Shown piece by piece: positions 3,718-33,166 of a stretch of DNA of 64,000 bases. Where the stretch lies: positions 534,130 through 598,129 of the forward strand of contig NZ_QGTR01000001.1 of the NCBI RefSeq assembly GCF_003182275.1, in the 5' to 3' direction. The position numbers and the translations under genes are program-made. The stretch's first letter is position 1, and each line of letters opens with the position of its first letter. The DNA comes from Hoeflea marina. Its GTDB lineage: Bacteria > Pseudomonadota > Alphaproteobacteria > Rhizobiales > Rhizobiaceae. The notes beneath the pieces were generated by a model that worked only from the letters and a program-made list of their open reading frames with translations, ran no database searches and was not told the DNA's origin.

Positions 3718-4005
3718 ATGGCGGGGCACAGGCAGTTGATCGTCATCAGCTACGACATCAGCCGGGACAGCCTGAGAAACCGGGTCTCCGGCATGCTCGA
3801 AAAGCTCGGCGTCCGGGTGCAGTACTCGGTCTTCGAGCTGAGGCTGACGCAGGCCGCCGCCGATGCGCTGTTCTCGAGGCTTGACCTGCTGCGCGACCCC
3901 GGCGACAGTCTGCGCATGTATGTGCTGCCCGAGGATGGCCGCAAGAATTCGAAGAGCGCCGGCGGCGCTCCCATCTCTCCGGCCGAGGACTATTTTCTTC
4001 TATGA
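3718..4005 (+). CDS. cas2: CRISPR-associated endonuclease Cas2
   Basis: This 95-residue protein has normal Cas2 length. The N-terminal beta strand LIVISYDIS carries the conserved Asp13, followed by the typical helix DSLRNRVSGMLEKLG and the strand VQYSVFEL. Cas2 dimers bridge two Cas1 dimers to form the integrase that inserts spacers at the leader end. It starts 7 bp after RT-cas1, with the RT-cas1 stop codon contributing to the purine-rich TGAGG before the ATG. Its own stop overlaps the start of the next gene (ATGA), so all three genes should be co-translated. Confidence 0.95.
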   Translation: MAGHRQLIVISYDISRDSLRNRVSGMLEKLGVRVQYSVFELRLTQAAADALFSRLDLLRDPGDSLRMYVLPEDGRKNSKSAGGAPISPAEDYFLL

Positions 4006-8301: not shown

Positions 8302-8304
8302 CCC

Positions 8305-15308: not shown

Positions 15309-17814
15309 CCGCATCACGGCGGGCCTCAAACGCCTGTTCGAGGATCAGGGGCACCGCATCGTCTTCTGGTATGATGCCGACCGTGACCTGCGCGGCGAAT
15401 TCGATGCGGTCGAGCTCGCCGGTGTCGCGAAACTCGAAATTGCCAACAATGAGTTCGGCCTGAAATACCGCATGCTGCGGCAGGAACCCAAAGCCCGATT
15501 CCTGCTTTATAAAGAAGGGGCTGAACCGGCAGCCGCAGACAACTGGCTGCTTGATGTCCAGCTAGCCAGCGCCGTGTTCAAGGCTGACCAGACGGCGATC
15601 TGGGTGGCCGAACTCGGCATCCCCGCAAAATACGAGGCAGCGGTGCGCGAGCACCCGGACTTCTATCGCTCACAGAAACGGCTGGAGCGGCTCCGGACCT
15701 TCGAACAGGACAAGCCGTCACGCTCGGAAAAGGATGTCCGGCGCAAGATGCTGGCGGTCTGTGCCGGTGCCGATGGTGATCTCGATACGGTGATCGAGGC
15801 GCTGCTCGGAGAGCTGGCGGACGGCCAGGATGAAAGCCTGCGGCTGATCGCCCGATCCGGACTGATGGCTTTCTTCTGGAAGGAAGTGGAGGCCGGTTTC
15901 GGCTATGCCGCCGATCAGCCGGACTTCCAGGATTTCGCCATCGCTCTGTTCGATTCCGCTTATCACCGCGCCCTTGGCGATGAGGGCCGGCTGAACGCCG
16001 AGGCGTCGCTGATGTTCCGGCGCTGGGCCAACAACAGGCATTGGGCCGGAGCCTTCGAGGCGCTGTCGCAGCAGTACCAGGAGCTCTTGAAGATCGAGGA
16101 TGATCTGCAGAAACGCGATTTCCGCCTTCTGATGCCCCATGATCATTTCGATGCGATGGACCGGCAGATCATCCGTTCCCTGGTCGAGGCGATGGCGACC
16201 CAGACGGTCAATTCCGCCGATGTGCTTCGATGGGTGCGGGAGCGCCGCCAGAGCCACTGGTACAAGACCTATGAGGACATCTACCAGGCAATTGGTTTTG
16301 CCACCGAATTCCAGCAGGCGCTGGCGGAAGCCAATCTGACCATGAACAGCGTCAGCGAAGGCGTGAAGCGCTATGCCGCCAGCTGGTACAAGCTCGACCA
16401 GCTCTATCGCAAATTCATCCACCACATGCAGAAGAGCGGCCAGGCAGGTCTTCTCAGGCCGCTCTACCAGTCAGTGGAAAAGCGCTACACGACGAACTTC
16501 GTCCTCGCCGTCAACGATGCCTGGCAGGATCAGGTCAACCGGCTGGAAGATTGGAAGATACCCGGCTATGTGCCGCAGCGAAGCTTCTATCGTGAGCACG
16601 CATCCGAATTCCGCCGCAAGGACCAGAAGGTCGTCGTCATCATCTCCGACGCGCTGCGCTATGAAGTGGCCGAGGAATGCCTGCGCAAGATCCGCGAACT
16701 GAACCGCTTCGATGCCGATCTCAAGCCGATGATCGCATCGCTGCCGAGCTACACCCAGCTCGGCATGGCTTCACTGCTTCCCAACAGCGATCTGTCGTTC
16801 AAGACGGACGGTAGTGACGGCATTCTATCAGGTGGCGAGAGCACCCAGGGCCTGCCGGCGCGGGAGAAAATTCTGGCCGCGGGACGCGCCGGCGACCGCG
16901 CCAAGGCTATGCGGGCGGAAGAGGCCATGAACATGGCTGTGTCGGAAGGCAAGGAGCTCTTCCGCGATCATGACATCATCTACATCTATCACAACCAGAT
17001 CGATGCTGTCGGCGACAAGGTCGCGACCGAAGGCAATCTCTGCCGCGCCGTAGAGGATGCGATAGACGATCTCGTGAAGCTGGTCCGCAAGCTCACTTCG
17101 GCCAATGTGACCAATATCCTGATCACCGCCGACCACGGCTTCCTCTATCAGCATCAGGCGCTGGACGAGAGTGACTTTGCCCTCGCCGATCCCCAAGGCG
17201 ACGAAATCCTGTCACGCAACCGACGTTTCGTCCTCGGACGTGGCCTGAAGCCGACCGCGGGCATGAAGAAATTCACATCCGCCCAACTGGGCATGAGCGG
17301 CGATGTCGAGGTGCTGATTCCGAACTCCATCAACCGTCTCCGGCGCCAGGGATCGGGCAGCCGCTATGTGCATGGCGGCGCGTCGCTGCAGGAAGTCGTC
17401 ATTCCCGTCCTGCGCGTGGGCAAGCAGCGCACCGCCGACATCAGCCAGGTCAGCGTCCAGATCATTGCTCCGGGAAAGAGCCTGATCACGTCGGGCCAGA
17501 TTGCCGTTTCGCTCTATCAGGCCGAGCCCGTGTCGGAGAAGATGCAGGGCAGGATGCTTCTTGCCGGCCTGTATGCCGAGGACGGGACGGCGATTTCCGA
17601 CGAGCACGAGCTGCAGTTCGATTTCGCATCGGAGAATGCGCGCGAACGGGAAATGCCAAGAAGCTTCCTGCTCAACCGGGCCGCCGATGGCTACAATGGC
17701 AAGACGGTCTATCTGAAGTTGCGCGAACGGATTGGCAAGACGAGCCGCCATCAGGATTACGCGAGCCATCCCTTCCAGCTGAAGCGCAACACCAGCATCG
17801 ATTTGGATTTCTGA
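15301..17814 (+). CDS. pglZ: BREX alkaline-phosphatase-fold protein PglZ
   Basis: An 837-residue PglZ. The alkaline phosphatase superfamily core is visible: VVVIISDALRYEVAEECL near residue 443 (the metal-binding Asp region) and ILITADHGFLYQ near 610, the second metal site. A histidine-containing segment, SRYVHGGASLQEVVIPVL, follows. The ATG at 15301 is chosen over the ORF start at 15259 because MSDRITAGLKRLF matches PglZ N-termini and gives an 8-base overlap with pglX. PglZ is essential for BREX and in one studied system has nuclease-like phosphodiesterase activity. A further gene, brxL, starts 7 bp on. Confidence 0.95.
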   Translation: MSDRITAGLKRLFEDQGHRIVFWYDADRDLRGEFDAVELAGVAKLEIANNEFGLKYRMLRQEPKARFLLYKEGAEPAAADNWLLDVQLASAVFKADQTAIWVAELGIPAKYEAAVREHPDFYRSQKRLERLRTFEQDKPSRSEKDVRRKMLAVCAGADGDLDTVIEALLGELADGQDESLRLIARSGLMAFFWKEVEAGFGYAADQPDFQDFAIALFDSAYHRALGDEGRLNAEASLMFRRWANNRHWAGAFEALSQQYQELLKIEDDLQKRDFRLLMPHDHFDAMDRQIIRSLVEAMATQTVNSADVLRWVRERRQSHWYKTYEDIYQAIGFATEFQQALAEANLTMNSVSEGVKRYAASWYKLDQLYRKFIHHMQKSGQAGLLRPLYQSVEKRYTTNFVLAVNDAWQDQVNRLEDWKIPGYVPQRSFYREHASEFRRKDQKVVVIISDALRYEVAEECLRKIRELNRFDADLKPMIASLPSYTQLGMASLLPNSDLSFKTDGSDGILSGGESTQGLPAREKILAAGRAGDRAKAMRAEEAMNMAVSEGKELFRDHDIIYIYHNQIDAVGDKVATEGNLCRAVEDAIDDLVKLVRKLTSANVTNILITADHGFLYQHQALDESDFALADPQGDEILSRNRRFVLGRGLKPTAGMKKFTSAQLGMSGDVEVLIPNSINRLRRQGSGSRYVHGGASLQEVVIPVLRVGKQRTADISQVSVQIIAPGKSLITSGQIAVSLYQAEPVSEKMQGRMLLAGLYAEDGTAISDEHELQFDFASENAREREMPRSFLLNRAADGYNGKTVYLKLRERIGKTSRHQDYASHPFQLKRNTSIDLDF

Positions 17815-17821
17815 GGATCAC

Positions 17822-19915
17822 ATGACCACACTGGACGCCAGGATCAACGAACACTTCGCCGGCTACGTGGTCCGAAAGGACCTGGTGAAGGCCGTCAAGG
17901 GCAACGCCATCGTCCCGACCTATGTGCTCGAATATCTTCTCGGGCAATATTGCGCCACCGACGACGAGGCCTCGATCGCCACCGGCATCGAGACGGTCAA
18001 GGAAATCCTGCGCAAGCACTATGTCCACCGCAGCGAAGCCCGGCTGGTGCAGTCGACGATCAAGGAGCAGGGCCGCTACAAGGTCATCGATCAGGTCAGC
18101 GTTGCGCTGAACGAGAAGACGGACAGCTACGAGGCCACGTTCGAAAACCTCGGCATCAAGAAGGTCGCCGTCGACAGCGGCACGGTGAGGGCGCATCCCA
18201 AGCTGCTCGTCACCGGTGTCTGGTGCATCGCCGATGTCCAGTACGAGTTCAGCGACGACGCCCGCATCTCGCCCTGGATACTCGAAAGCATCAAGCCGAT
18301 CCAGGTCGCGCGGGTTGACTTCGACAGCTATCTTGCCGCCCGCGACGCCTTCACCACGGAAGAGTGGATCGATCTCCTGATGCAGAGCATCGGCTTCGAG
18401 CCTGGCGTGTTCGGCCGCCGCAGCAAGTTGCTGCAGCTGATGCGCCTGGTTCCCTTTGTCGAGCGCAACTACAACATCATCGAGCTCGGCCCGAAGGGCA
18501 CGGGCAAGTCGCACATCTATTCCGAGTTCTCGCCCCACGGCCAGTTGATCTCGGGCGGCGAGGTCTCCGTGCCGAAGCTGTTCGTGAACAATTCCAACGG
18601 GCGCATCGGCCTCGTCGGCTACTGGGATGTCGTGGCCTTTGACGAATTCGCCGGCCGCGAAAAGACGGCGAACAAGGCGCTCGTCGACATCATGAAGAAC
18701 TACATGGCCAACAAGAGCTTCTCCCGCGGCGTCAATCCGATGGGGGCGGAGGCGAGTTTCGCCTTCGTCGGCAACACCGACCACAATGTTCCCTATATGC
18801 TGAAGAACAGCGATCTGTTCGAAGCGCTGCCCGCCCAGTTCCACGACTCCGCCTTCATCGATCGCCTGCATGCCTATCTGCCGGGCTGGGAGGTGGATGT
18901 CATCCGCAGCGAGATGTTCACCTCCGGCTACGGCTTCATCGTCGACTACCTGGCCGAGATCCTGCGCCACCTTCGCGCGCAGGATTTCTCGCACCGGCCC
19001 GACCGGTTCTTCACGGTCAGCAGCAAGATGTCCACCCGTGACCGCGACGCCATCTACAAGACGATGTCGGGGCTGCTGAAGATCATTTTTCCCAACGGCG
19101 GCGAAACCGAACAGGAGGTCGAGGAGCTTCTGCGGATCGCCATGGAAAGCCGCAAGCGGGTCAAGGATCAGCTCTTCCGCATCGACAGCACCTATCCGGC
19201 CGTCGACTTCCATTACACGGCGAGCGATGGACGAAAGATCCCGGTCACAACGGTCGAGGAAGAGGAGTTCCCGCAATTCTACCGCCATGGCAAGCAGGCT
19301 GATGCCGGAGAGGACGAAGCAGGCGACACCGCCGACCGGACGCCGGACGCCCGGCCGCTCCCGGCGCCCGCCGCTCCGTCCGGAGCGGCAGCGCCCCGGC
19401 CGCAGGACGGCCATGTCGTCTTTGCCGAGAACCGGAAGGGCATCGGCTACGACAAGCTCTTCGGACCCTATCTCGACGGTGCCAGACGCATCGTCGTGAC
19501 CGACCCCTACATCCGGATCTTCTACCAGATCAAGAACATGATGGAGCTTGTCGAGATGGTTATCCGGCGCAAGGCGCCGGAGGATCAGGTCTCGATCCAT
19601 CTGGTGACCGGCCCGGATGACGGCAACATCGAGACACAGCGCGAGCTTCTGGATTCGATAACGGAGGCCTGCATCGGCACGGGAGTGGACTTCACCTGGG
19701 CCTTTGACACCACGGGCAGCGTTCACGCCCGCGACATCACCGCCGACACAGGCTGGAAGATCGTCCTTGATCGCGGTCTGGACATCTTCCAGCCGCCGCT
19801 GCGCAAGGCCAACGGCTTCTCGCTGAGTGACCGCATGCAGGAACACCGGATGATCAAGGGCTTCTACGTGACCTATGTCCGGCATGCCGATGCTGGTTCC
19901 GAGGTCCGGGAGTGA
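17822..19915 (+). CDS. brxL: BREX AAA+ protein BrxL with MIT_C-like C-terminal domain
   Basis: A 697-residue protein that completes the type I set. The N-terminal half matches BrxL, with Walker A GPKGTGKS near residue 225, Walker B-like VVAFDEFAG near 277 and sensor AFVGNTD near 317. BrxL proteins of the Lon-like class carry a C-terminal protease-like domain. Here, after a Pro/Ala/Asp-rich linker (about 495-535), residues 540-690 read like the C-terminal phospholipase-D-fold domain of MIT-domain proteins (MIT_C): RRIVVTDPYIRIFYQIKN, then SIHLVTGPDD, then DTGWKIVLDRGLDIF. I see no Lon-type Ser-Lys active site. The MIT_C call is from memory of the family pattern. Confidence 0.88.
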   Translation: MTTLDARINEHFAGYVVRKDLVKAVKGNAIVPTYVLEYLLGQYCATDDEASIATGIETVKEILRKHYVHRSEARLVQSTIKEQGRYKVIDQVSVALNEKTDSYEATFENLGIKKVAVDSGTVRAHPKLLVTGVWCIADVQYEFSDDARISPWILESIKPIQVARVDFDSYLAARDAFTTEEWIDLLMQSIGFEPGVFGRRSKLLQLMRLVPFVERNYNIIELGPKGTGKSHIYSEFSPHGQLISGGEVSVPKLFVNNSNGRIGLVGYWDVVAFDEFAGREKTANKALVDIMKNYMANKSFSRGVNPMGAEASFAFVGNTDHNVPYMLKNSDLFEALPAQFHDSAFIDRLHAYLPGWEVDVIRSEMFTSGYGFIVDYLAEILRHLRAQDFSHRPDRFFTVSSKMSTRDRDAIYKTMSGLLKIIFPNGGETEQEVEELLRIAMESRKRVKDQLFRIDSTYPAVDFHYTASDGRKIPVTTVEEEEFPQFYRHGKQADAGEDEAGDTADRTPDARPLPAPAAPSGAAAPRPQDGHVVFAENRKGIGYDKLFGPYLDGARRIVVTDPYIRIFYQIKNMMELVEMVIRRKAPEDQVSIHLVTGPDDGNIETQRELLDSITEACIGTGVDFTWAFDTTGSVHARDITADTGWKIVLDRGLDIFQPPLRKANGFSLSDRMQEHRMIKGFYVTYVRHADAGSEVRE

Positions 19916-19978: not shown

Positions 19979-21310
19979 ATGAAGGTCTATTGGGGCATGC
20001 TGGCGCCTGAAAACGTCAAACCTTCGCGCAGAAGACTAACATTGGGGCTCGGCAGGGCAGTAATGCTCTACAACGAAGCGGCTGTTCCAGGGCTCGGCGG
20101 CTTGTGGTTCATTCGCCAGGCGGCGCTGGCGCTCATTGGCATTCAAGTGGCGGAAGAGTTCCCCTCTGCCGGAAGCAAGATAGAGGTCGCCAACGCCATA
20201 GAGGCGCTGGCCTGCTGGGTCGGCTACCAAGAAAGAGACTGGAGCCGAGGAGACTGGAGACTGCGCGGGCCACTCAAGCTCAAGTCCCTGGATGACAGGA
20301 AGCTGGAGCGGACGTTCCGTCGGCTAAAGTCGCCCTCTTCCTACGTCACTCAGCCCATGCGCATGGGCTGTGTCGAAGCTCTTCCGGGGATGGGCTTTGT
20401 TGACGCGAACGGGTCTCGATTTAACAGCTTTTCGGTCAACGCTCGTGGACACGAACTCATCGAGGCAGTTTTTGGCGAAAAGGGGCAAGGTCGGCGTTAT
20501 GTGCCGGCTTACCTCCGCGACTGGGTGCGCGGTGAACCGGACAACTTCACGACCTCCCTGCGTCAAAAACTCAACCCAACTAGCGATGCCGGACAGAATG
20601 CGCGCAAGGTTATGCGTGAGGCGTTGGCGTTTCCGGGGCCTGATGCCGAGCGTCGTCGGAATGCCTTAGCTTGGGTGGAGAGAATCGATGCCGGGGGGAA
20701 ATTCGGCGTAAATCCTCACACCCACTGGACAAACCGACCCGAGGAGATTGACGATCACCACTGGAAAGATATGCGGGCCGGGGCGGTGCTTGTTCAGACC
20801 CGCAGCGCTGCTATCGGAGTGTTGGCCCACATCGAACAAGAAATTGTCGTGCATTCTCGTCTCAACCTGACACGCCCACTTCCCGAAGGCGTATCGGCCT
20901 CATTGAGATTATGGCGCAAGGAAGCGCAGGGTTTTCTGGCGCTTGATGGTCACGGGCCTAGCGAGGCGGCCGCAGCTGCGCGGGAGTTCTGTAACGAGTC
21001 ACTCCAATCCGACGTCCAGGCAATCACGAAACTCGTGAACCGCGAGAACCACACGTTGCGGGTAACAGGTAATGCCGTAGTTCCAACTGCTGCATGGCGG
21101 ACAGACGCCGTTCTTACTGTAGACGACGGAGAGGGTAACGCGTCTGGCATCGATACGGCCGCCGAGGGGGCGGAGGACGGGGCCCTGGTGCCCGCAGAGC
21201 GTGACGTCCTGCCGCTCGCGATTTCCCCGCGCCTGGTATATCTGCGGCGCCTGGCGCTTGATCTCAACGGACAGCTTGGCATGTTCATTGAAGCGCAGGG
21301 GCGGAACTGA
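19979..21310 (+). CDS. Unknown protein, first gene of BREX-linked five-gene cluster
   Basis: A 443-residue protein that I do not recognise. It has no signal peptide, no clear membrane segment and no nucleotide-binding loop. The N-terminal part (residues 20-110) is helical, with PGLGGLWFIRQAALALIGIQ and a short tryptophan-rich stretch, GYQERDWSRGDWRLRG; a middle segment has RRLKSPSSYVTQPMRMG. The last 100 residues include an acidic linker. It begins 63 bp after brxL and its stop overlaps the next start (TGATG), so it is likely translated with the TDP1-like gene. The position, at the head of a nuclease/helicase cluster, suggests a sensor or adaptor role, but this is inference only. Confidence 0.75.
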   Translation: MKVYWGMLAPENVKPSRRRLTLGLGRAVMLYNEAAVPGLGGLWFIRQAALALIGIQVAEEFPSAGSKIEVANAIEALACWVGYQERDWSRGDWRLRGPLKLKSLDDRKLERTFRRLKSPSSYVTQPMRMGCVEALPGMGFVDANGSRFNSFSVNARGHELIEAVFGEKGQGRRYVPAYLRDWVRGEPDNFTTSLRQKLNPTSDAGQNARKVMREALAFPGPDAERRRNALAWVERIDAGGKFGVNPHTHWTNRPEEIDDHHWKDMRAGAVLVQTRSAAIGVLAHIEQEIVVHSRLNLTRPLPEGVSASLRLWRKEAQGFLALDGHGPSEAAAAAREFCNESLQSDVQAITKLVNRENHTLRVTGNAVVPTAAWRTDAVLTVDDGEGNASGIDTAAEGAEDGALVPAERDVLPLAISPRLVYLRRLALDLNGQLGMFIEAQGRN

Positions 21311-23373
21311 TGATCCATCCACATCTGCCCATTTCCCTTGTTGAGCACGCAGGCCCCCCGGAGGGCATGACCGGCCATGCGGGATGGATTTGCGGCTTTT
21401 CTGCCGACGCAGATTTCATGGAGGCGTTCGTTGAGCGTTTTACCGGTCAGGGCCGATCGGCGCGTGCCGATCTTGGCCGCACGTTCATAGGCCTCTGCCT
21501 TGACCGTTCGCAGGCACAAATCCCACCAGGCGAAGTGCCAGGCGTCCTTCATCTGCCCGCTCGTGATGACTCACCGCCTTATCGCCTCATGCATGCGAAA
21601 GTTGCACTCCTTGCATTTCGCAGCGCGGCTGATGATAAAGACTGGGCTCTGCGGCTTCTTGTTACCACCGGCAATTGGACCCGGCAGACCACCGAGGACA
21701 GTATCGATCTTGTCTGGCGGCTGGATCTTGCCGCACAAGATCTTTTGGCGCGCGAGCCGGTTGATGCGCTCGAGCAATGTCGGGTCGACATCGTTGCGGC
21801 GCGCGACTTTTGGCGCGGGTTGCGGCAGCATTACCAGAGCCGGCTCCTCGAAGTGGATGCAAAAGCCGAGAAGGCACAGAAGACGCAAGCTGCCGCATTT
21901 CTAGAATTGGAGCACTGGTTGAGCCGGCTGAAGGGAAATACAGTTGTGACGCCCCGCTTCATCCATACCCAGCAACAGGCCTTGATCAACCAACTGGCCC
22001 ACCGTGTCAAAGCACACGCCGGCTCCCAGCGGAGGAACAATCTCGTTCTTGGCTCGGGGTTTTGGGAGGGGGAGCCGATCACAGGTCTGCCGAAGGTTCC
22101 CAGCAAGATCGCCAAAGCGTTGGTAGACGCATCGCTCCTGACACAATCGGCAAAGATTACTCTGGTCCTTGAGAGTCAAGGCTGCGCCGCGCTGGCAGAT
22201 AAGGGCGTCTTTGATAGCATTAAAGCAGCGAAATGGACGCTTCTCCATCCATTTAAGGTGGAGGGCGACGTGCGGCGTCTTCATGCTAAGTTCCTGTTCT
22301 CGGCAAACAGGCAAGGAGACAGCGAGAATTGCGCCTCGGCCTGGGTTTACCTCGGCTCTGGCAATCTCACGCCTGCCGGTTTTCTCAATCCGCCCAACCG
22401 TGGCGGTAATCTCGAGGCTGGCGTCATAATGGCGGCAGATGGACTTTGCTGGAAATTGGGGACCAAGTCCCCCCTTCTTCCGGTTGCCAAGGTCCTTCCT
22501 ATCGACTGGAACGCTGATATCTCAGACGTTTCGGTGCTTTCCTCAGGAGATGGCCCACCGGAGCGCGACCCGCTCTTTATGGCTGCGTCAGTCTCCCATA
22601 TGTTGTGGGTACCCGAAGACACTTTCAATTTCTTATCGGTTCCTGAAGGCGAGGATGCCACGAGGATTGTAATTCTGGGACCCAACAATGAGGCGCTGAT
22701 AGAAGACGCATGTGGACGGTTCCCTTGGGATGGCGAGCAGCCGGCGTATGTAGGGACGCGTCCCATAGATCAAGATGACAGTGCCTCGGTTGTCTTGGTT
22801 CCTGTATTGGACCGCTATGGAAGGCTTGCTGCGCGCCGATTGGACCCAATCGACCTAGAGCAGGCCATTGAACTTCTGGCCGGCTTTCCTGCAGTGCCGG
22901 AGGAAGGTGATACCCGAGGCGCTGAAGATACGCCTGCGCCGCCAGACACGAATATTCTGGCTGCAGCGTCCAGACGATCAATGCCGGACGCGCGCTATGC
23001 AATTCGGCGAACGATGCAGCTAATAGAAGCAATCGCCCAACGCCAGACGATGGTGCCTGGGGCAGATTGGACACGTTGGACCCAGCGCCTGCAATGTGTG
23101 CTCACACAACTGGGCAGTCTGCCCCAACACGGAGGCAATGGCGAAGAGCGCGCGGCCAGCAAAGGGATGACGAGAGGAATATTGGTCGAAGCCTTGCTCC
23201 CACTGGAGATCAATCCCCTTTCCTGCCTGCGCGAACGGCCTTTCCTGCCGGACCACGTCAAGCGCGGCAGCACGGAGTTCCTCGCTCTGGACGAGGCGTT
23301 GCGCGCGGTGGAGGCCAATTGGGGTGTGACCGAATTCGTTGGACTGGAATGTGGAGTATCGGATGCCGGTTAA
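21310..23373 (+). CDS. TDP1-like phospholipase D superfamily protein
   Basis: A 687-residue protein with two PLD half-sites. The first is MHAKVALLAF (His95, Lys97) followed by LLVTTGNWT (Asn122). The second is LHAKFLF (His325, Lys327) followed by YLGSGNLTPAGF (Asn352). Neither His-x-Lys is followed by the Asp of the usual HKD motif. His-Lys-Asn sites of this sort characterise tyrosyl-DNA phosphodiesterase 1, which removes proteins stuck to DNA 3' ends. The remaining ~300 residues are unassigned. It overlaps both neighbours and lies between the unknown protein and an SNF2 helicase. A DISARM DrmC-like nuclease is the alternative reading. Confidence 0.75.
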   Translation: MIHPHLPISLVEHAGPPEGMTGHAGWICGFSADADFMEAFVERFTGQGRSARADLGRTFIGLCLDRSQAQIPPGEVPGVLHLPARDDSPPYRLMHAKVALLAFRSAADDKDWALRLLVTTGNWTRQTTEDSIDLVWRLDLAAQDLLAREPVDALEQCRVDIVAARDFWRGLRQHYQSRLLEVDAKAEKAQKTQAAAFLELEHWLSRLKGNTVVTPRFIHTQQQALINQLAHRVKAHAGSQRRNNLVLGSGFWEGEPITGLPKVPSKIAKALVDASLLTQSAKITLVLESQGCAALADKGVFDSIKAAKWTLLHPFKVEGDVRRLHAKFLFSANRQGDSENCASAWVYLGSGNLTPAGFLNPPNRGGNLEAGVIMAADGLCWKLGTKSPLLPVAKVLPIDWNADISDVSVLSSGDGPPERDPLFMAASVSHMLWVPEDTFNFLSVPEGEDATRIVILGPNNEALIEDACGRFPWDGEQPAYVGTRPIDQDDSASVVLVPVLDRYGRLAARRLDPIDLEQAIELLAGFPAVPEEGDTRGAEDTPAPPDTNILAAASRRSMPDARYAIRRTMQLIEAIAQRQTMVPGADWTRWTQRLQCVLTQLGSLPQHGGNGEERAASKGMTRGILVEALLPLEINPLSCLRERPFLPDHVKRGSTEFLALDEALRAVEANWGVTEFVGLECGVSDAG

Positions 23374-25999
23374 TATGAGCCAGTTCGCAGGATGGGAAGC
23401 GGTTTGCGCGTGCATCGGTGGATCGCAAGAACCGGAATTATTTCCACAAGACTATCTCGATGAGGGCCAGATCGACGGCTTGAATGCTCTGGCTGCGTCC
23501 ATGAAAAAGCACGGTGCAGTGCTCGCCGACGAGGTCGGTATGGGCAAGACGCGGATCGCCGTCGCGCTGGCCCTTGCGGTCAAGCGGAGCGGCGGCAGGG
23601 TAGCCATCGTTGTTCCACCGGTCGTCGCCCCACAATGGCGCGACGAGATCATCAAGGCCGGCGAGAGTTCCAAAGACATGCTGCGCAGCTTCGACGGCTT
23701 GATGCGTGACTATGAAACCGATGGCGCGGCAAGAATGGATGACGCGCTCGTCATCCTCTCTCACCGTTTCGGTGACGTGCGTGCACAGACGTCCGGAAAG
23801 AGGTGGCGCGCCGATCTCCTAAAGCTGCTCGTCTGGAATGCGAACAGAAGAATTCGGAAGGGATGTACGCTCGCGGAACGGCAAATGCCGGGTGTCAAGT
23901 TGGCGGCCGGCGAGATCATTAGGCGGGCCGAGCATTGCCATCTCACTAAATCCGCCGTTGAGAAAATCGTCGAGCAGTTCCAGAACCTCGATAGTCGGGC
24001 TGAACTCGACGATTTAAATTCAAATTGCTTCAAAAACCAGTCGCCTGAACTCAAGTTGCTTGAACGCACACTTGGACTTGCACTTGGTCCGTTCGATCTG
24101 ATCATCATCGATGAGGCCCATAAATCTCGTGGTGAATATAAGAAACTCTCGGTGCTTATTGATCGCGTCATCCTTTCATCTGACAAGACGGGCCGACGAC
24201 TTGGCCTGACTGCGACCCCGGTCGAGCTTGACGTGTGGCAGTGGAAGAGCACGCTCATGCGCGTTTGCATGTCTGAGCCTGTTTGGATGTCGATCGAACC
24301 TGCTGTGCTGGAGTACCGCGAAGCTGCCGAAGCGGCACGCCGGCGCTGGCGTACCGACGAAACGGCACAAAGCCGTTACATGACGGCGGCGGCGAAGTTT
24401 CACGCAAGTCTTGCGCCTTGGGTTGTGCGCCGGGACAAGCGTCGTGATGTCACAACCATTCTGTTCAACGAGCACTCGCCAAGCGGAATGAGCTATCGAC
24501 GGCAGCACCCGATCGAAGTTCAAGCCGGTGATCTATCGCCAGGCTGGCTCCGGATCGTGTTTGCCGCCGAGGCACTCTCAGTCATCGGACAGGCGGCCGC
24601 TGACACGACTGCGGCTCGTGCACGGCTGACGATCAGCAACGGTCACGGAGTGGCCGGGATTATCGACAAGTTAGCGAGCCGGCGGGCTGGAAACAGTCGC
24701 CACGAAGATGACGAAGCCGATCGCCAGCAGTCTGCGGAAGACCGTGCGGAAGACGGTGTCAAAGCAAGCGCAGAGCTCTCATTCGAGGAATATGGCGTGC
24801 GCAAGCGAAAGCAACGTGCGGACTGGTGGAAAAAGGCGCTTTCGGCACCATTCGATAATGGCACCGAGAGCCTTCTTAATCATCCGGTGCTGTCGAAGGT
24901 CATTGTCGAGATCGAAAACTACACACGCACTGGCGAGAAGGTACTCGTGTTCGGTCGCTTCACGCGGCCCATGCGTGTCCTGACAGATCTTCTCAACGCC
25001 CGGGCGCTGTTGCGGGCAGTTCGAGATGGAACACCTTGGCCGCAGGAAAAGACCTCCGACGACGATCAGGGGGTGCTGCTCGCAGCTGCCAAGCAACTGG
25101 AATTTGATTATGACCGCAAGCATGTCGATGACATTCTGACCGATGCCTACAGAGCGTTCGAAACGCACCGTCAGGCACTGCGAAACCACATCTCGTCCTT
25201 GATCGAGAGCGGGGCAACTGACCAGACCGCCCTGTTGCAGGCCATTGCGAGGGACACGGACCCGTCGACGATAGTCACGCCGCTGGCCCGGGCTGCCGAG
25301 CCTTTCTTGCGCGAGGACACGTCGGGCTCGAAGATCTCACGCAAAGCGGTGATCGGAGCGCTCATCAATGTCACCGATGCCCTACGCGAACGCGGCGAGG
25401 GAAGCGCCCAAGACGATGATAAACTGGACGACCTCTCTGCGAATGCACTGTGGGCAAGGCTTCGTGAGGGCCTGATAGAGGAGTACGGTGCGCCTCGAGC
25501 CTCATTTGCACGGATGCTTTACGGCCAGACACTCCCTTCCACGCGACGTCTGGTTCAGCTTGCCTTCAATCGCTCGGAAAGCGAACCGCATGTGCTAATC
25601 GCCCAATCCATGGTCGGACGTGAAGGGCTCAACCTGCACGAAAGCTGCCGGATCGTCATTCTACTCCATCTCGAATGGAACCCCGGAGTCGTGGAGCAGC
25701 AGATCGGCCGCGTCGATCGCAAGAACAGCCATTGGTCGCGGCTTCTGCGGGAGGCAGTCGATGCCGGTAGCAGGGAGATGCCGCAGATAGAAATTCGACC
25801 CGTGATCTTTCGGGGTACATACGATGAGCATCATTGGTCAGTACTGTCACGGCGCTGGGACGAACTGCGCTCGCAACTGCACGGTTTCATTGCGTCGGGC
25901 AGCGATCGTGAGAGCCTGACAGAAGGTGACAGGCGGCTTCTTCAGTCGCTCGAGGAAGGGAGCCCAGACTTTTCGCCAGAACCATCATCAAAGACGTGA
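23363..25999 (+). CDS. SNF2-like superfamily 2 helicase/translocase
   Basis: An 878-residue protein with the complete set of SF2 motifs: DEVGMGKT (residues 56-63, Walker A), DEAH (about 250-253, Walker B), LGLTATPVE (motif III), a phosphoprotein-like inserted region around residues 430-480, then REGLNLHESCRIVILLHLEW and EQQIGRVDRKNS (motif VI). This is the SNF2/DISARM-DrmD style of helicase that moves on double-stranded DNA. The ATG at 23363 with GGAG seven bases upstream is preferred; the longer frame starts on TTG at 23339. It overlaps the TDP1-like gene by 11 bases. Confidence 0.85.
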   Translation: MPVNMSQFAGWEAVCACIGGSQEPELFPQDYLDEGQIDGLNALAASMKKHGAVLADEVGMGKTRIAVALALAVKRSGGRVAIVVPPVVAPQWRDEIIKAGESSKDMLRSFDGLMRDYETDGAARMDDALVILSHRFGDVRAQTSGKRWRADLLKLLVWNANRRIRKGCTLAERQMPGVKLAAGEIIRRAEHCHLTKSAVEKIVEQFQNLDSRAELDDLNSNCFKNQSPELKLLERTLGLALGPFDLIIIDEAHKSRGEYKKLSVLIDRVILSSDKTGRRLGLTATPVELDVWQWKSTLMRVCMSEPVWMSIEPAVLEYREAAEAARRRWRTDETAQSRYMTAAAKFHASLAPWVVRRDKRRDVTTILFNEHSPSGMSYRRQHPIEVQAGDLSPGWLRIVFAAEALSVIGQAAADTTAARARLTISNGHGVAGIIDKLASRRAGNSRHEDDEADRQQSAEDRAEDGVKASAELSFEEYGVRKRKQRADWWKKALSAPFDNGTESLLNHPVLSKVIVEIENYTRTGEKVLVFGRFTRPMRVLTDLLNARALLRAVRDGTPWPQEKTSDDDQGVLLAAAKQLEFDYDRKHVDDILTDAYRAFETHRQALRNHISSLIESGATDQTALLQAIARDTDPSTIVTPLARAAEPFLREDTSGSKISRKAVIGALINVTDALRERGEGSAQDDDKLDDLSANALWARLREGLIEEYGAPRASFARMLYGQTLPSTRRLVQLAFNRSESEPHVLIAQSMVGREGLNLHESCRIVILLHLEWNPGVVEQQIGRVDRKNSHWSRLLREAVDAGSREMPQIEIRPVIFRGTYDEHHWSVLSRRWDELRSQLHGFIASGSDRESLTEGDRRLLQSLEEGSPDFSPEPSSKT

Positions 26000-26189
26000 G
26001 CTACGAAAGTGTTCGCTCCATCAGGATAAGACGGGATTCCCAGCCGTCCTCAACATCATGGCAGCTGTACGTCAAATCCCGTATCCCGGTGCGACGCCGG
26101 TTCACGCATGGCGGGAATACGATTGTCGCTGAAACCGCTTTATCTACCCAAACTAGAAAGCTATGTGTTTGGCAATAGGGGGATTCTAA

Positions 26190-29100
26190 TTGAGCGACCA
26201 TATTCGATCTGACCAGAACCCTCAGTCCAAAATCGAGGGAGCTCGGTTCGCGGAGCTTTCCGAAGCTGCGCCGAAATCGGTAACAATTCCGTATCGAGCA
26301 AATCTACTTGGCAACATCGAACAGGCGCTGAAGGGGCTGCAAGGGTATGGCATCATGGCGCTGGAACTGATCCAGAACGCTGACGATGCCGGGGCCAACA
26401 GCTTATCCTTCGATGCACGCGATGATGCTTTGGTTGTCGGGAACGAGGGAGAGTTCACCAGTTGTGGGCTTGAGGACGCCGAATGTCCGTGGACCAAGTC
26501 CGGCGATCCTACCGGGTTGAGGCGTCCCTGCAACTTCCATGCGATCGCTGAGATGGGTAGCAGAAGCAAGCTGCACGCACCTGAGCAGACCGGGCGCTTC
26601 GGGATAGGTTTTGTATCGGTCTATCAGATCACTGACACGCCTATCGTCCGGTCGTCCGGCGTCGAGTTGCGCCTCAATCCGCAGACCCAAGAGGTGGTAA
26701 AGAGCGAGATCGCCCGTTTCGCCGGCACTCAGTTTGTGCTGCCGTGGGCCGCAGAGAATTCTGAAGTTAGGGCCGGTCTGAACGCCTCACCCACACCGGT
26801 GGATGTCGCGGACAAAGTGGTCGCGGAGATCGACCACGTTCTCGAGGGCAGTCTGCTTTTCCTTCGGCATATCCAACGTGTCGAATTGCGACGCAACGGC
26901 AGGCTTATCGTCAGCGTCGAGATTGATCGGTCCGCGGAAGCGGTGACACTTCGGTTCGATCCATCCGGGCACACTCAACGCTGGCTTGTCCTTCAACGAG
27001 AGGCCGATGACGTTGTTGCAGCTGCCAAGCTTTCCGAGCGGTTCGATGCTTTGGCGCGGCTTGACCGTTCGATGACGGTCAGCGTCGCTGTGCCGCTGAA
27101 CCTTGAGCAGATAGACGGTTTGCTTTACGCCTACCTGCCGACCCGCCAGTCGACCGGCATGCCCGTCCATGTGAACGCCGACTTCTTTCCCCATGCTAGC
27201 CGTCAGGCGATTGTGCTAGAGGGCGAACAACATGACCGATATTGGAACGAGGCGCTCATCGAGACGGCCGCGGCGGCATTAGCGGACAATTTCGTCCGCA
27301 TCCGCGATCTACTAGGTTCGGAGCGCTTCTGGGCGTTGGCTGAGGCCGCGTTTCACCGGCGGAGTGAGCCCGCGTTCAAGCCGTTTTGGGATAGACTGGG
27401 AAAAGCTGCGACCGAGGCGCCATCGATATGGACCACGCAGGGCGAATGGCGCCTGCCGAAAGAGACGGCCCTCCCGCCCGACACCATGACACCCCCTGAT
27501 CAGGCCGCGATCGCCGAATTTGGTCTCGCATTGATCCATCCCAAACTGCGTCGTCATTGGACCGTGCTATCTAGCATCGGTGTGCAGCATCTCCGGCTTG
27601 CGAATTTGGTCGCCGCGTTGGATGCCCGGGCGGACGAAGTAACAGCGGGCGAAAGCAAGCCTCTGCGGAGGCTTTGGTCAGCCATCGAACTGTTGATCGA
27701 CGTGTCCTCGGACAGAGCCGAGCTGCCCATGGTGCTTGCAAAGCTAAAAGCCATTTCCTTCATGCTGGACGCCGATGATCAACCAATCAGCCCAAATGAA
27801 GCTCGACGACTGCCCGCTAGCGTATCGGCGGCTGCGCTGCGACGTACGGTTCCAAATCGCATCCTTGTGAATTCCCACATTCTATCACTCCCACATCTTT
27901 CAAGCCTCGTCGCAGAATATTTGCTGGACGATCTCGCATCCGACCTTGCGGATGTGATCACCGACGACATGTCGGCCACCGCGGCGATAGGCGACACTGA
28001 CGCGGACGCCCGACGCTTTTACTCCCTACTGACATCGTTCCCGACGGATAGGAAGAGCGGCGCAGTTTCGGGCACACTGGCAGAAGTTCCTATGTTGCGG
28101 ACCGGCACTGGATTTGTCAGCCCGTCACGGGGCCAGTTGCCCGGCGACTTCCGTGATCCCATCGGGCACTTCCAGATCATCGACACCCGGCTGTTCGTCA
28201 CCGTCATGATGGATCTGGCGAGGGACGTGCTGCAGACAAACGTCCTAACGTTCCGCGATTACGTTGAGGAGCACCTCGAGCAGATTCTCGCTGGAGAGTT
28301 GACGCGGCAGCAGTATGGCGCGCTGCTTACCGAGATCTTGAACCACCGTTCCCAGCTCGACGAGGACGGCACCCTTGCGGCACTGGCCGGGATCGCCTTT
28401 GTTCGTACACGGGCCGGAGAATACGCGAGACCGAACGAATTGTATTTTTGGTCCGCGCCGTTGGCGGCGATTCTTGGCGAAGAACCGGCGAGATGGGTGG
28501 ATGAGACTTGGCTTCCGAGTGAGATAAACGCGCGGTCCCGCGATCTGTTCGAAAGGCTCGGCATGCCCATCACGGTCGCGGCAGAGCACATAGTCGAGCG
28601 CATCAACACCATCGCAGAGGCAGGCAATCTTGACAACATCGTTGCCGGAACAACGCCCATCATTCGTTACGTATTGGAGCGGTGGACTCGTTTCGATGAC
28701 GAAGACCGGATTGTGCTAAGCAGACTGCGGGAAGTGAAGTTCCTCTCCGCGATCGTGGATGGAGAGCGGAAGGAGGGGCTAAGATACTCACCGCGCGGGG
28801 TCTATCGGGCTGGTCGCGCGACCGGCTTCGCGTCCCAGGTGCCGGTTGTCGAGATGACGGCCCTGCGCCAGTCGACCTCGGTAGTTACAGAATTCCTGGA
28901 CCTCATAGAATTGCCAGCGGAGCCGCCGACAGAAAAGATCGTAGCTCATCTTGAACACTGCATGAGCTCAGGCACCGCTGTAAACGACCTAACCTATCAG
29001 ATGTTGAGCGAGCGTCTGGAGCGCTCTGACAATGCCGGATGTATCGATCGCCTTGAAGGAACAGACTTCATCTATTTTCCTGATGTCGGCTTCATCGGCG

Positions 29101-31184
29101 CCGGCGAGGTGTTCTGGATCCCGCCGGCCTTCGGTGGGCTTTGGCACACGGCAAGCGCGCGCATGCGACAGCGCGATCAGCTCTACCGTCGGCTTGGGGT
29201 CGCCGACTCCCCCGAGCCCCGCCACTTCGCCGCTCTGGCCTTGCGGATCGCGGGCAGTCCTTCACCAACAGCCACGGACATTGTCATTCATAGCCGCTGC
29301 CTCGCCGCTCTTGCCGAGGCGCTCGAGCGTGAGGACGCTGGCGCAGCGGAAGCTGTCGATCTCCTATCGGACGAGAGGGCATTTCTTGCCGTCAATGGCG
29401 ACCCGATTTCGACTAGGGATGCGATATGGCTGGACTCTGAACAATTGGCCGCACCGTTCGGTTCGGTTCTGGACGATCGTATCGTTCGATTGACCGACCT
29501 CAGTCGTTCGGCCGCGATCCGGTTCCTGTTTCGTCTGGATGTGCCTGCGCTGACCGACATTGCCCGGTTCCGCTTGGCAGATGAGCCCGATGGACGCCCC
29601 GCCATCGAAGCGACCTCTCTCTTGCAGTCAAGAGCCGATTTGATCCTTTGGCTTGCACCCAATCGTGCGACCCGGCAAGCTCTCATCGAAATTCTTCAGC
29701 GGCTTGATGTTAGCTTTTCCGCCCAGTTGATGGTGCATGCAGAAATCGACGCATTAAATCCGCCGGTGCGATCCCCAGCATCGTCCGCTAATGCCTACTT
29801 GGATCGTGAGGCAGGGCTGTTGCATGTACGCTCGACAACGAGTCGGGTGGACTGGGCTGCTGCCTTTCGCGTTGTGTTCTCCGAAATCGAACGATTTTGC
29901 CCATCCACTGACATTCCGCCGCTGTGTCTGACCGCCGCATACATCATGTCGCTGGAGGATCGGACGGAGGCTGAGCAGGCGCTCCTGGCATCGGACTTCA
30001 AAGCGCCTGCCGATGACAACCAGGGGATCCAAGTTGGCCGTGAGCTCGAGGACGAGCAAGTTGAGACTAGCGCCGATGTTGCGGCCGAGATCGAGGTCGT
30101 CGAGGATGGCCCTACCGACGACGACCCTATCGAAGATATAAATGAAAGTACTGTGGCAGAGGATGAAGCTTCGTCGGACAACAAAGACACACTCGACTCA
30201 GGGTCGAAGAGAACTGAGATCAGACAGAACGACGGAGCTGGTTGGGATGACAAAATTGGTTACGATACCGCCGGGGACCGATATGCTGCCGGGCCTGCCG
30301 ATGACCCTCAAACGGATGATGACGTTTCTCAAGACGGTGAAAACGATGACGTCGATCTCGATGATGAGGCCTATGGGTCCGCCTCCGGTCGCGGTGCTTT
30401 CGGTGCAGATCCAGGTGATGTTGCGACAACCGGAGTGACGGCAGCAGGTGGCAACGGGCGAGGCATCGCGACATCGAGTGGCGAGCCTCGCGGAACTGGC
30501 GCTTCGCTTAAGGCCGGAGGCAATCGGAAGCATGAAGCCATCGCGGAGAACCAAGTGCGTCGTTCGCGCATGCTCTCCTACGTGTTACGCAGTGGACCGA
30601 GCGGAAATGGCGATGCTGCGGTCGCGTCTGCAGGCGACGACATCTCGAAACTTATCGACGCGGCAGCAATAAAAGCGGCGCTCAGCTATGAGCAAACACG
30701 GGGATGGGCTCCCGAACAACAACCGCACTTCAACCCCGGTTTTGACATCGTATCGAGATCGCCGAGTGGCAGTCGTCGTCTCATTGAGGTAAAGGGCCTC
30801 GAAAGCGATTGGACCGAGCGGGGTATCAAGCTCAGCCATGTCCAGTTTGCGATGGCGCGTGAACACCTTGATGAGTTCTGGATATACGTCATCGAACATG
30901 CTCGTGACATGGAACGCCAACGTGTAAGTGCGATCTGCAATCCCTTCGGAAAGGTCGAGGAATACTGGTTCGACCATAATTGGCGTCAGGTTTCGGAAGA
31001 GCGAGCTTCGTCGCGCGACATTCATCTACGGGTAGGGCTAAAGGTCGAGCATCATCTCTGGGGCAAAGGAGTAGTGACCGAAATCGATTCGCGTGGTGCG
31101 ATCCCATTCGTCGTTGTCGACTTCGGCACCATAGAAGGACGGCGAGGGGTTCCATTCAACTCTTCGCTTAAGGTGCTCGGCTGA
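26190..31184 (+). CDS. Giant Hsp90/sacsin-type ATPase with DUF3883 and Tudor-like C-terminus
   Basis: A 1664-residue protein. Residues about 35-160 form a GHKL ATPase domain: ELIQNADDAGA (Asn63, Asp66) and GRFGIGFVSVYQ, as in sacsin and Hsp90. A very long helical middle follows. Residues about 1283-1440 are an Asp/Glu-rich low-complexity linker. About 1510-1600 is DUF3883, with NPGFDIVSRSPSG and RLIEVKGL, a restriction-endonuclease-like pattern. The last 50 residues (VEHHLWGKGVVTEI, VVVDFGTIEGRRGVPF) resemble the Tudor-like end of UvrD/PcrA helicases. The start is TTG with AGGGGGA seven bases before it. A gap of 190 bp separates it from the SNF2 gene. Confidence 0.8.
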   Translation: MSDHIRSDQNPQSKIEGARFAELSEAAPKSVTIPYRANLLGNIEQALKGLQGYGIMALELIQNADDAGANSLSFDARDDALVVGNEGEFTSCGLEDAECPWTKSGDPTGLRRPCNFHAIAEMGSRSKLHAPEQTGRFGIGFVSVYQITDTPIVRSSGVELRLNPQTQEVVKSEIARFAGTQFVLPWAAENSEVRAGLNASPTPVDVADKVVAEIDHVLEGSLLFLRHIQRVELRRNGRLIVSVEIDRSAEAVTLRFDPSGHTQRWLVLQREADDVVAAAKLSERFDALARLDRSMTVSVAVPLNLEQIDGLLYAYLPTRQSTGMPVHVNADFFPHASRQAIVLEGEQHDRYWNEALIETAAAALADNFVRIRDLLGSERFWALAEAAFHRRSEPAFKPFWDRLGKAATEAPSIWTTQGEWRLPKETALPPDTMTPPDQAAIAEFGLALIHPKLRRHWTVLSSIGVQHLRLANLVAALDARADEVTAGESKPLRRLWSAIELLIDVSSDRAELPMVLAKLKAISFMLDADDQPISPNEARRLPASVSAAALRRTVPNRILVNSHILSLPHLSSLVAEYLLDDLASDLADVITDDMSATAAIGDTDADARRFYSLLTSFPTDRKSGAVSGTLAEVPMLRTGTGFVSPSRGQLPGDFRDPIGHFQIIDTRLFVTVMMDLARDVLQTNVLTFRDYVEEHLEQILAGELTRQQYGALLTEILNHRSQLDEDGTLAALAGIAFVRTRAGEYARPNELYFWSAPLAAILGEEPARWVDETWLPSEINARSRDLFERLGMPITVAAEHIVERINTIAEAGNLDNIVAGTTPIIRYVLERWTRFDDEDRIVLSRLREVKFLSAIVDGERKEGLRYSPRGVYRAGRATGFASQVPVVEMTALRQSTSVVTEFLDLIELPAEPPTEKIVAHLEHCMSSGTAVNDLTYQMLSERLERSDNAGCIDRLEGTDFIYFPDVGFIGAGEVFWIPPAFGGLWHTASARMRQRDQLYRRLGVADSPEPRHFAALALRIAGSPSPTATDIVIHSRCLAALAEALEREDAGAAEAVDLLSDERAFLAVNGDPISTRDAIWLDSEQLAAPFGSVLDDRIVRLTDLSRSAAIRFLFRLDVPALTDIARFRLADEPDGRPAIEATSLLQSRADLILWLAPNRATRQALIEILQRLDVSFSAQLMVHAEIDALNPPVRSPASSANAYLDREAGLLHVRSTTSRVDWAAAFRVVFSEIERFCPSTDIPPLCLTAAYIMSLEDRTEAEQALLASDFKAPADDNQGIQVGRELEDEQVETSADVAAEIEVVEDGPTDDDPIEDINESTVAEDEASSDNKDTLDSGSKRTEIRQNDGAGWDDKIGYDTAGDRYAAGPADDPQTDDDVSQDGENDDVDLDDEAYGSASGRGAFGADPGDVATTGVTAAGGNGRGIATSSGEPRGTGASLKAGGNRKHEAIAENQVRRSRMLSYVLRSGPSGNGDAAVASAGDDISKLIDAAAIKAALSYEQTRGWAPEQQPHFNPGFDIVSRSPSGSRRLIEVKGLESDWTERGIKLSHVQFAMAREHLDEFWIYVIEHARDMERQRVSAICNPFGKVEEYWFDHNWRQVSEERASSRDIHLRVGLKVEHHLWGKGVVTEIDSRGAIPFVVVDFGTIEGRRGVPFNSSLKVLG

Positions 31185-32896
31185 TGGCGAAGTGCTTCCC
31201 CGAGCCGTATGATGCGGTATCCGAATCCAAGGCAGAACTCCTGCTGTATAAGGCCCTCGCTGAACAGCTCGGACCCGACTATGTTATCTTACATTCTGTG
31301 GCTTGGATATCACGGCCCGGCGGTAGTGGGCCGCGTGAAGGAGAAACCGACATCCTCATAGCCCACCCCGTGCGCGGTTTGCTCGCATTGGAGGTAAAGG
31401 GTGGACGCGTCTCGCTCGATTATCGCACGCGGACTTGGGTATCAATCGACGCGAACGGCGTCGCCCATGACATCAAGAATCCCTTCGATCAGGCCCGGCG
31501 CGGAAAGTTTGCCCTATTAGAGAAACTCAAGGAAAGTCCGGCTTGGAAGAAGCTGGGCATTGGGCGTTTCAACATTGGATATGCGGTGTTCGTCCCGAAT
31601 GTCGGGGACGGCGACCGACTTCGCGGACCTGATGCCCCCGCCGAAATGATCGGCGACCGGCGTGATCTCTCCGATCTGGGCGCATGGGTAGGGCAGGTGT
31701 TGGACTACTGGTCAGGCCAAGAAGGGGCTGGTCAGCAGATCGGCACGCGCGGTGTGGATGCCCTCGTCGCGCTCTTCGCTCGTTCTGTTTCAACGCGACC
31801 ATTGCTCTCTGCCCGTATTGCTGATGAAGAGGATGTTCGGTTTTCACTAACGATCCGCCAAGCCGCAATCCTTGATATTTTGAGGCGCCAGAGAAGAGTC
31901 GTTATTGCCGGTGGCGCTGGCACGGGGAAGACCCTGATCGCACGAGAGAAAGCCGTGCGACTGGCTTCTGAAGGCATGCGCACGTTATTGCTTTGCTACA
32001 ACCGCGGACTTGCCGATCATCTCCGCGAGCAGTGCACTACAATCGGAGGTTTGGATGTCGCAACCTTTCATCAGGTCTGCCACAGATGGATCGAGCGGGT
32101 GAAGGCAAAGAATGGCAGGGACCTGCTATCCGAAGCGCGCGCCAACCTGCCGCGAGGCGACGAGTTTGATCATCACATGCCTATGGCTCTCGCTAACGCG
32201 GTAGACACTTTGGGTCCAATCTATGACGCAATCGTGGTTGACGAAGCTCAGGATTTCGGTGACGAGTTCTGGCTCCCGGTCGAGATGCTCTTGACGCGAC
32301 CCGACGAAGCCATGCTCTACGTCTTCTTGGATGAGAATCAGGACATCTACCGCCGTTCCGCGGAAATACCGGTGCAGGGTGAGCCGATGGTGCTCGACCG
32401 CAATTGTCGGAACACCGATGCGATCCATGCGGCAGCTTACAGTCATTACCGTGGTGCTGTCGTCGAGCCGCCTCAGATCAGTGGTGTCGAGGTTAACCGT
32501 CTCCTTGCTTCTGGGATTGAAAAGCAGGCGGCGTTGATCGGAACGTTGGTGACCAAGCTCGTCGTTGAGGAGGGCGTAGCTCCTCACGAAATCGCAATCT
32601 TGCTCTGTGATCCCGCCGATCGGCCCGCGCGCGAGCGAGCCCTTCAGACGTTACCTCTGCCTGCCACGGTGAAACTCGGTCGGGTCGAAGACTTCAGCCG
32701 CGGGGGACTGACCGTTGATACGGTCGCTCGTTTCAAGGGGCTCGAGCGTGCCGTGGTGATACTCTGGGCTTTCGACCGGTGTGATGTGGGCAAAGATCGC
32801 GAAACGCTATATGTAGGCATGTCACGTGCCAAATCTCTGCTTTATGTTGTTGGGTCGCGCGAGGCCTGTGACCATATCTTAGCAGCTCAGACATAA
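31184..32896 (+). CDS. NERD-domain superfamily 1 (UvrD-like) DNA helicase
   Basis: A 570-residue protein. The N-terminal 200 residues are a NERD nuclease-related domain (EGETDILIAHPVRGLLALEV with KGG next, the Asp and Glu-x-Lys core of the PD-(D/E)XK fold). An SF1 helicase follows: GGAGTGKT at 243-250, VVDEAQDF near 353, VLDRNCRNTDAI, TVARFKGLERAVVILW and LYVGMSRAKSLLYV. It lacks the accessory 2B bulk of true UvrD and has no C-terminal Tudor domain, whereas its neighbour ends in one. The start overlaps the stop of the giant ATPase (TGATG), so the two proteins are probably made in concert. It is the last gene before the tRNA. Confidence 0.88.
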   Translation: MAKCFPEPYDAVSESKAELLLYKALAEQLGPDYVILHSVAWISRPGGSGPREGETDILIAHPVRGLLALEVKGGRVSLDYRTRTWVSIDANGVAHDIKNPFDQARRGKFALLEKLKESPAWKKLGIGRFNIGYAVFVPNVGDGDRLRGPDAPAEMIGDRRDLSDLGAWVGQVLDYWSGQEGAGQQIGTRGVDALVALFARSVSTRPLLSARIADEEDVRFSLTIRQAAILDILRRQRRVVIAGGAGTGKTLIAREKAVRLASEGMRTLLLCYNRGLADHLREQCTTIGGLDVATFHQVCHRWIERVKAKNGRDLLSEARANLPRGDEFDHHMPMALANAVDTLGPIYDAIVVDEAQDFGDEFWLPVEMLLTRPDEAMLYVFLDENQDIYRRSAEIPVQGEPMVLDRNCRNTDAIHAAAYSHYRGAVVEPPQISGVEVNRLLASGIEKQAALIGTLVTKLVVEEGVAPHEIAILLCDPADRPARERALQTLPLPATVKLGRVEDFSRGGLTVDTVARFKGLERAVVILWAFDRCDVGKDRETLYVGMSRAKSLLYVVGSREACDHILAAQT

Positions 32897-33076: not shown

Positions 33077-33166
33077 TGGCGGAGGAGGTGGGATTCGAAC
33101 CCACGGTACGGTTTCCCGCACGCCGGTTTTCAAGACCGGTGCCTTCAACCGCTCGGCCACTCCTCC
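33077..33166 (-). tRNA. tRNA-Ser(UGA)
   Basis: Read on the minus strand, the gene starts GGAGGAGTGGCCGAG, has anticodon loop CTTGAAA (anticodon TGA) between matching CCGGT/ACCGG arms, a long variable arm CGTGCGGGAAACCGTACC, the T-loop GGTTCGAATCC and a closing CTCCTCC with discriminator G. The terminal CCA is encoded (33077-33079). The length of 90 nt suits a class II tRNA. The 3' end faces the defence region, as when a mobile island has inserted into a tRNA gene. Confidence 0.97.

Follow-up and report, generated by a model that had tools for sequence, protein, structure and literature searches.

Two probable defence modules, a three-gene helicase-nuclease unit and a TmtA pair, behind a BREX operon of Hoeflea marina

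We analysed a window of 64,000 nucleotides (nt) from Hoeflea marina (GCF_003182275.1, NZ_QGTR01000001.1, 534,130-598,129, forward strand; all coordinates given here are window-based) in which five open reading frames (ORFs) lie at 19979-32896, directly after a complete type 1 BREX (bacteriophage exclusion) operon. The content of these five genes and their occurrence elsewhere suggest that they probably constitute two independent defence modules, a trio (genes 1-3) and a duo (genes 4 and 5), placed behind BREX within an island whose end is marked by a tRNA-Ser gene. The tempting 26-kb composite with BREX, proposed in an initial annotation of this DNA, is thereby corrected, and the three-gene helicase-nuclease unit is set apart as the better object of study.

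Five genes between brxL and tRNA-Ser

7043-19915, + strand: brxA-brxL, type 1 BREX (PADLOC models)
19979-21310, + strand: trio gene 1, 443 residues, nearly all-helical protein of no recognised family
21310-23373, + strand: trio gene 2, 687 residues, TDP1-like phospholipase-D (PLD) nuclease
23339-25999, + strand: trio gene 3, 886 residues as called, SNF2/RapA-like DNA translocase
26190-31184, + strand: duo gene 1 (gene 4), TmtA, 1664 residues, sacsin/Hsp90-type ATPase with DUF3883 and a Tudor-like end
31184-32896, + strand: duo gene 2 (gene 5), 570 residues, NERD nuclease fused to a UvrD-type helicase
33077-33166, - strand: tRNA-Ser (tga) (ARAGORN)

All five ORFs are on the plus strand and intact, with 0 internal stops, and the block stops just ahead of tRNA-Ser. 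The initial annotation had described five same-strand genes directly behind brxL with mostly overlapping starts. The arrangement was confirmed, as were the overlaps at the gene 1/gene 2 and gene 4/gene 5 junctions, whereas genes 3 and 4 stand 190 nt apart, a ribosome-site-like stretch being located in between, ahead of gene 4, and the true start of gene 3 is probably at about 23378 and not at 23339, since its relatives begin at an M...F.GW motif. The protein assignments of that annotation also held: the fold of gene 2 matches TDP1 (the PLDc_2 match itself falling below the Pfam cut-off), gene 3 carries the Pfam domains SNF2-rel_dom, ResIII and Helicase_C, gene 4 carries SACS and NOV_C (the latter being DUF3883) with a weak, sub-threshold PcrA_UvrD_tudor match, and gene 5 carries NERD, UvrD-helicase and UvrD_C_2.

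The G+C content is about 0.57-0.60 across the five-gene/BREX stretch as compared to 0.65-0.70 to the right of tRNA-Ser, which is likely the right-hand edge of the defence island; at the tRNA itself the change is from about 0.58 to 0.68-0.70. A plus-strand search of 73 kb leftwards for a second attachment (att) copy of the tRNA-Ser end gave nothing convincing, the longest exact match being 14 bases, and we therefore do not claim integration at this gene. In the same search, a 17-base stretch with one mismatch to the tRNA-Ser end was located within gene 3.

Genes 1-3 in other genomes and their relation to known systems

A gene-1 profile scan of species genomes returned 67 loci, whose flanks were examined over 10 kb or to the contig end. 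Wherever the contig continues for more than 3.5 kb past gene 1, as it does in 57 loci, genes 1-3 adjoin in this order. The remaining 10 run off their contigs too early for a test; L076 is one of them, with no gene 2 in the 843 bases that follow its short gene-1 match. The trio is also present on seven plasmids, in a genome of the window's own genus (L012) and on one viral contig (L113), and the contigs carrying it, some of them metagenome-assembled, are assigned to Pseudomonadota, Planctomycetota, Acidobacteriota and Myxococcota. TmtA was near the trio in none of the 67 loci and a NERD helicase in one, and all five genes together were seen in no locus besides the window. Among 50,697 phage records no gene 1 was found, and no description of the trio was found in the open-licence literature among the matches listed. 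Judged from these comparisons of sequence, genes 1-3 seem to form a widespread, conserved and apparently unnamed helicase-nuclease unit.

The AlphaFold model of the gene-1 protein (predicted local distance difference test, pLDDT, 86) is nearly all helical and gave no match in PDB by Foldseek at E ≤ 0.001, and the window protein belongs to no family in Pfam, PADLOC, NCBIfam or PHROGs. Forty-four gene-1 proteins were aligned (the window, 40 of the 67 genome loci and three of the seven plasmids; the structure version omits the three plasmids). DUF6361 was detected in none of them (Pfam, E ≤ 0.1), and PADLOC returned a single marginal match in one (PDC-M26B, E 0.024), the presence of a ZacA model in PADLOC being unchecked. 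We propose that gene 1 is the adaptor or recogniser of the trio.

The gene-2 protein carries two HxK...N motifs (H95/K97/N122 and H325/K327/N352), seen also as HxK...GN, and HxK...N is the form of the motif found in TDP1. The His, Lys and Asn residues are invariant in all 35 aligned proteins (the window and 34 of 63 loci). The best PDB match of its AlphaFold model (pLDDT 85) is yeast TDP1 (1q32, E 2.7e-9), with human TDP1 also among the best matches; gene 2 differs from TDP1, however, in the low identity of about 12%, in a longer C-terminal part and in having a helicase partner gene. ZacB is the sole PADLOC match of the family and is found with 35/35 proteins, albeit weakly (1.1e-7, best member 1.6e-10), and a profile-profile comparison of gene 2 with ZacB (E 9.4e-5) covers only the first 140 or so of its 687 residues.

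Gene 3 displays the motifs GMGKT, DEAH, TATP and QQIGR, and its nearest solved relatives are chromatin remodellers and RapA. The PADLOC models PDC-M27C, DrmD, BrxHI and ZacC match every one of the 22 aligned gene-3 proteins (the window and 21 of 57 loci), PDC-M27C and DrmD scoring above ZacC, whereas the match to the DrmA model is weak (1.1e-10 over 78 residues only).

The trio is reached by PADLOC-DB 2.0.0 only via remote matches of the Azaca and DISARM (defence island system associated with restriction-modification) types. PDC-M27 was considered and discarded: it is the best PADLOC match of gene 3, yet genes 1 and 2 match no M27 model. DISARM, which shares with these genes a PLD nuclease and an SNF2-type helicase and whose DrmD models match gene 3, was rejected in agreement with the initial annotation, no DUF1998 (DrmB) or methyltransferase family being found among the five proteins in Pfam and PADLOC scans; moreover, DrmA is only weakly matched by gene 3, and gene 2 matches ZacB and not DrmC. 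Other PLD-helicase combinations are described in the YprA-helicase and CoCoNuT literature.

Azaca (ZacABC), reportedly due to Millman 2022, comes with the same gene order as the trio, namely unknown protein, PLD and SNF2 helicase, seen in three Azaca loci with genes of broadly comparable size, and its ZacB and ZacC models match genes 2 and 3, remotely. The name Zac refers to Azaca in an excerpt of PMC12278908. We call the trio Azaca-like and not Azaca because ZacA is a DUF6361 protein (PF19888 in L101 and L103), a membership that could not be detected for gene 1. An identification of gene 1 with ZacA was dropped after hhalign comparisons with three and then six ZacA sequences gave no significant match (with six, E 0.5, probability 0.1%), although N-terminal 'LGLG...PG' stretches of the two proteins align in this non-significant output. 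That the trio is a divergent Azaca in which gene 1 is a ZacA drifted past detection is nevertheless a possibility that we entertain tentatively: gene order, sizes and the consistent ZacB and ZacC matches speak for it, as do the aligned stretches, but the lack of DUF6361 in 44 gene-1 proteins, the short reach of the ZacB match and the better fit of gene 3 to PDC-M27C and DrmD make it doubtful.

As one of two independent modules, the trio would work by analogy with helicase-nuclease defences. Its SNF2/RapA-type motor would translocate on invading double-stranded DNA and deliver it to the PLD nuclease; the TDP1-type enzyme would cut this DNA or process its ends via a phosphohistidine intermediate. 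The helical product of gene 1 may recognise the target, act as a clamp, or couple motor and nuclease.

TmtA and its NERD-UvrD neighbour

The initial annotation had been unable to match the set to any named system. Gene 4, however, belongs to a known protein family, since it matches the PADLOC TmtA model (PDLC03969, 1226 bits) over nearly its full length (residues 29-1659 of 1664). We take Tmt in PADLOC to be Tiamat, which is a single-gene system. The nearest solved relatives of gene 4 are sacsin structures (5v44-5v47), and its motifs comprise ELIQNADD, GRFGIG and a C-terminal D1519...E1533xK1535. This D...ExK arrangement makes the DUF3883 domain read as nuclease-like, and DUF3883 is described as a novel restriction endonuclease domain in PMC3710099.

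Gene 5 (motifs D56, E70xK72, GTGKT and DEAQ) matches the PADLOC model RTasNERD-Hel at 233 bits. It differs from the reverse transcriptase (RT)-associated NERD helicases in that no RT adjoins it: no RT match is given by any of the eleven genes of BREX, the trio and the duo, and the only RT seen in the window is an RT-Cas1 fusion at 1665-3710, about 27 kb away.

The same pair was observed on a plasmid of Sphingomonas naphthae (L013), where a TmtA gene (39% identical) is directly followed by a NERD-UvrD helicase gene (59% identical), with neither BREX nor the trio in the 34.8 kb examined. Ten plasmid records gave TmtA-like matches, and neighbourhoods were read for the two that cover at least 80% of gene 4, those of S. 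naphthae and Microvirga. The Microvirga TmtA has no same-strand NERD partner; a UvrD-type helicase is found 1.6 kb off on the other strand. Sequence patterns taken from gene 4 itself, able to detect only its close relatives, had no match in viral contigs. Genes 4 and 5 look like a second unit, distinguished from Tiamat by the NERD-UvrD helicase partner seen here and in S. naphthae. A two-gene form of TmtA bears on how the Tiamat ATPase works. The Hsp90/sacsin-type protein might sense some infection cue and act through its DUF3883 nuclease-like domain, with the NERD-UvrD protein as its helicase-nuclease partner. For both the trio and the duo, each small enough for cloning, the anti-phage activity is what we infer from the genes and their setting, as is every mechanistic step.

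BREX and the other neighbours of the trio

The BREX operon preceding the five genes contains all six type 1 genes, which are 54-79% identical to those of plasmid L006, a record that carries a BREX-1 annotation:

7043-7702, + strand: brxA (PADLOC BrxA, 256 bits)
7699-8301, + strand: brxB (PADLOC BrxB, 239 bits)
8305-11826, + strand: brxC (PADLOC BrxC, 1759 bits)
11826-15308, + strand: pglX (PADLOC PglX, 1358 bits)
15259-17814, + strand: pglZ (PADLOC PglZ, 1049 bits)
17822-19915, + strand: brxL (PADLOC BrxL, 1164 bits)

Using the window's own BREX proteins as queries, we found a BREX gene in reach in two of the 67 trio loci and in two of the seven plasmids (20-kb flanks); such a search can miss BREX genes because of short contigs, 10-kb flanks or divergent BREX types. 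Plasmids L006 (1330-25551) and L008 (1258-28040) display the order BREX, AddB/AddA-like pair, trio, the gene-2 match of L008 being interrupted by some 2.5 kb. In L022 and L040, BREX genes 30-49% identical to those of the window lie a few kb from the trio. Conversely, a sample of 385 genomes from the window's class contained BrxL in 10, and behind BREX in the nine other than the window's own neither trio nor duo was found (tblastn; about 11-14 kb visible in eight, 2-3 kb in one). L150 (6798-12706), a BREX locus of the same class, has an AddB/AddA-like pair downstream of brxL, and no trio was found there.

A gene-1 tree of 53 rows (45 of the 67 genome loci, six of the seven plasmids, L012 and the window), five of them, L022 and L040 included, labelled for BREX, requires four changes of this label (gains or losses), all four forced by well-supported branches, and none of 200 bootstrap trees (0%) has a single change. 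The window trio is nested among Rhodobacterales trios preceded by AddA-like genes, and the L006 trio is on a different branch, even though the BREX genes of the two are so similar. The histories of BREX and the trio therefore differ, which argues against a fixed machine.

The co-occurrences invite a second explanation, that BREX has recruited both modules as accessory or backup effectors, which fire when PglZ is blocked, an idea found in PMC12839542. This 2026 BREX survey lists auxiliary nucleases adjoining BREX, and the terms AddAB, UvrD and ADP-ribosyl are absent from its main text. The explanation draws on the proximity of BREX and trio in the window and in L006/L008, looser in L022 and L040, with these loci falling on separate gene-1 branches, and on the AddAB-like pairs that also lie behind BREX in L006, L008 and L150. 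We nonetheless consider it unlikely, for in 65 of the 67 trio loci no BREX gene was found in reach, the distribution of the BREX label over the tree does not depart from chance, and defence genes cluster anyway.

In 27 of the 67 loci the trio is accompanied by a WYL protein and a double-AAA ATPase that somewhat resembles IetA; an ADP-ribosylglycohydrolase is found in 11, and 30 have none of the tested neighbours. When the seven plasmids and L113 were added (75 loci, L012 being left out), a profile search detected an AddB/AddA-like pair in 21 and a NERD-UvrD helicase in two. The pair is behind the trio in L007, L067 and L113; elsewhere it precedes the trio or is on the opposite strand. In four Rhodobacterales loci (L015, 9-9965; L018, 142-9965; L070, 123-9950; L073, 123-9938), the trio is preceded by a conserved row composed of an IetA-like AAA ATPase, a WYL protein, an ADP-ribosylglycohydrolase, an AddB-like PD-(D/E)XK protein and an AddA-like UvrD protein. 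This row and the trio are possibly one larger, unnamed defence locus.

These partners enter a third explanation, according to which the trio would be a DNA-end-opening module that strips protein-capped or blocked phage DNA ends and feeds exchangeable helicase and PD-(D/E)XK nuclease machines. The TDP1-chemistry nuclease, the SNF2 motor and the new-fold protein would jointly open the ends, and the partner would be the AddB/AddA-like pair or a NERD-UvrD helicase, the latter being represented in the window by gene 5 behind the Tiamat gene. We find this distinctly improbable. More than half of the 75 loci show no such partner within reach, and the 14 unmatched control loci contain genes of these kinds too, with one AddB/AddA-like pair (L150), two AddA-type matches and two NERD-helicase-type matches, one of which is the S. 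naphthae duo.

Several observations weigh against two modules independent of each other and of BREX. All of these genes share one strand with short gaps or overlapping junctions, so that a single transcript is possible, and terminator-like sites are at chance level and not in excess (11 found as compared to 11.3 expected). For the duo there is a single further locus (L013), two of ten TmtA-like plasmid neighbourhoods having been examined, and in samples of 385 and 398 genomes, searched at strict thresholds (E 1e-20 and 1e-50), a TmtA of the gene-4 family was found in 1/385 and 1/398, in both cases the window's own. The BREX label on the gene-1 tree is no more scattered than chance, and it is hardly clustered either because a count this low came up in 48 of 500 shuffles (mean 4.9). 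Finally, BREX and the trio meet more than once, so that their cooperation could be useful, a possibility that their differing histories may well leave intact.

The common strand, close junctions and terminator count would equally suit the suggestion of the initial annotation that the five genes are one system, with PglX marking self DNA, and with BREX a 26-kb composite machine, but both the composite and the dependence on PglX are unsupported and highly improbable because the units occur apart (the trio without TmtA in 67/67 loci, the duo without trio or BREX, BREX without either in 9/9 other BrxL loci), BREX linkage is rare and the tree needs four label changes, PglX also being presumably unneeded wherever a trio genome lacks BREX, as judged from neighbourhoods rather than whole genomes.

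Ahead of BREX, positions 1-4955 of the window add another module to this island: CRISPR-like repeats (clustered regularly interspaced short palindromic repeats), many spaced about 67-73 nt apart and partly degenerate, followed by the RT-Cas1 fusion already mentioned, Cas2 (3718-4005) and a Cas6-like gene (4002-4955). Outside the island studied, a patatin-like phospholipase gene (44255-45385) lies in a second patch of low G+C content (0.54-0.55, at 44-48 kb).

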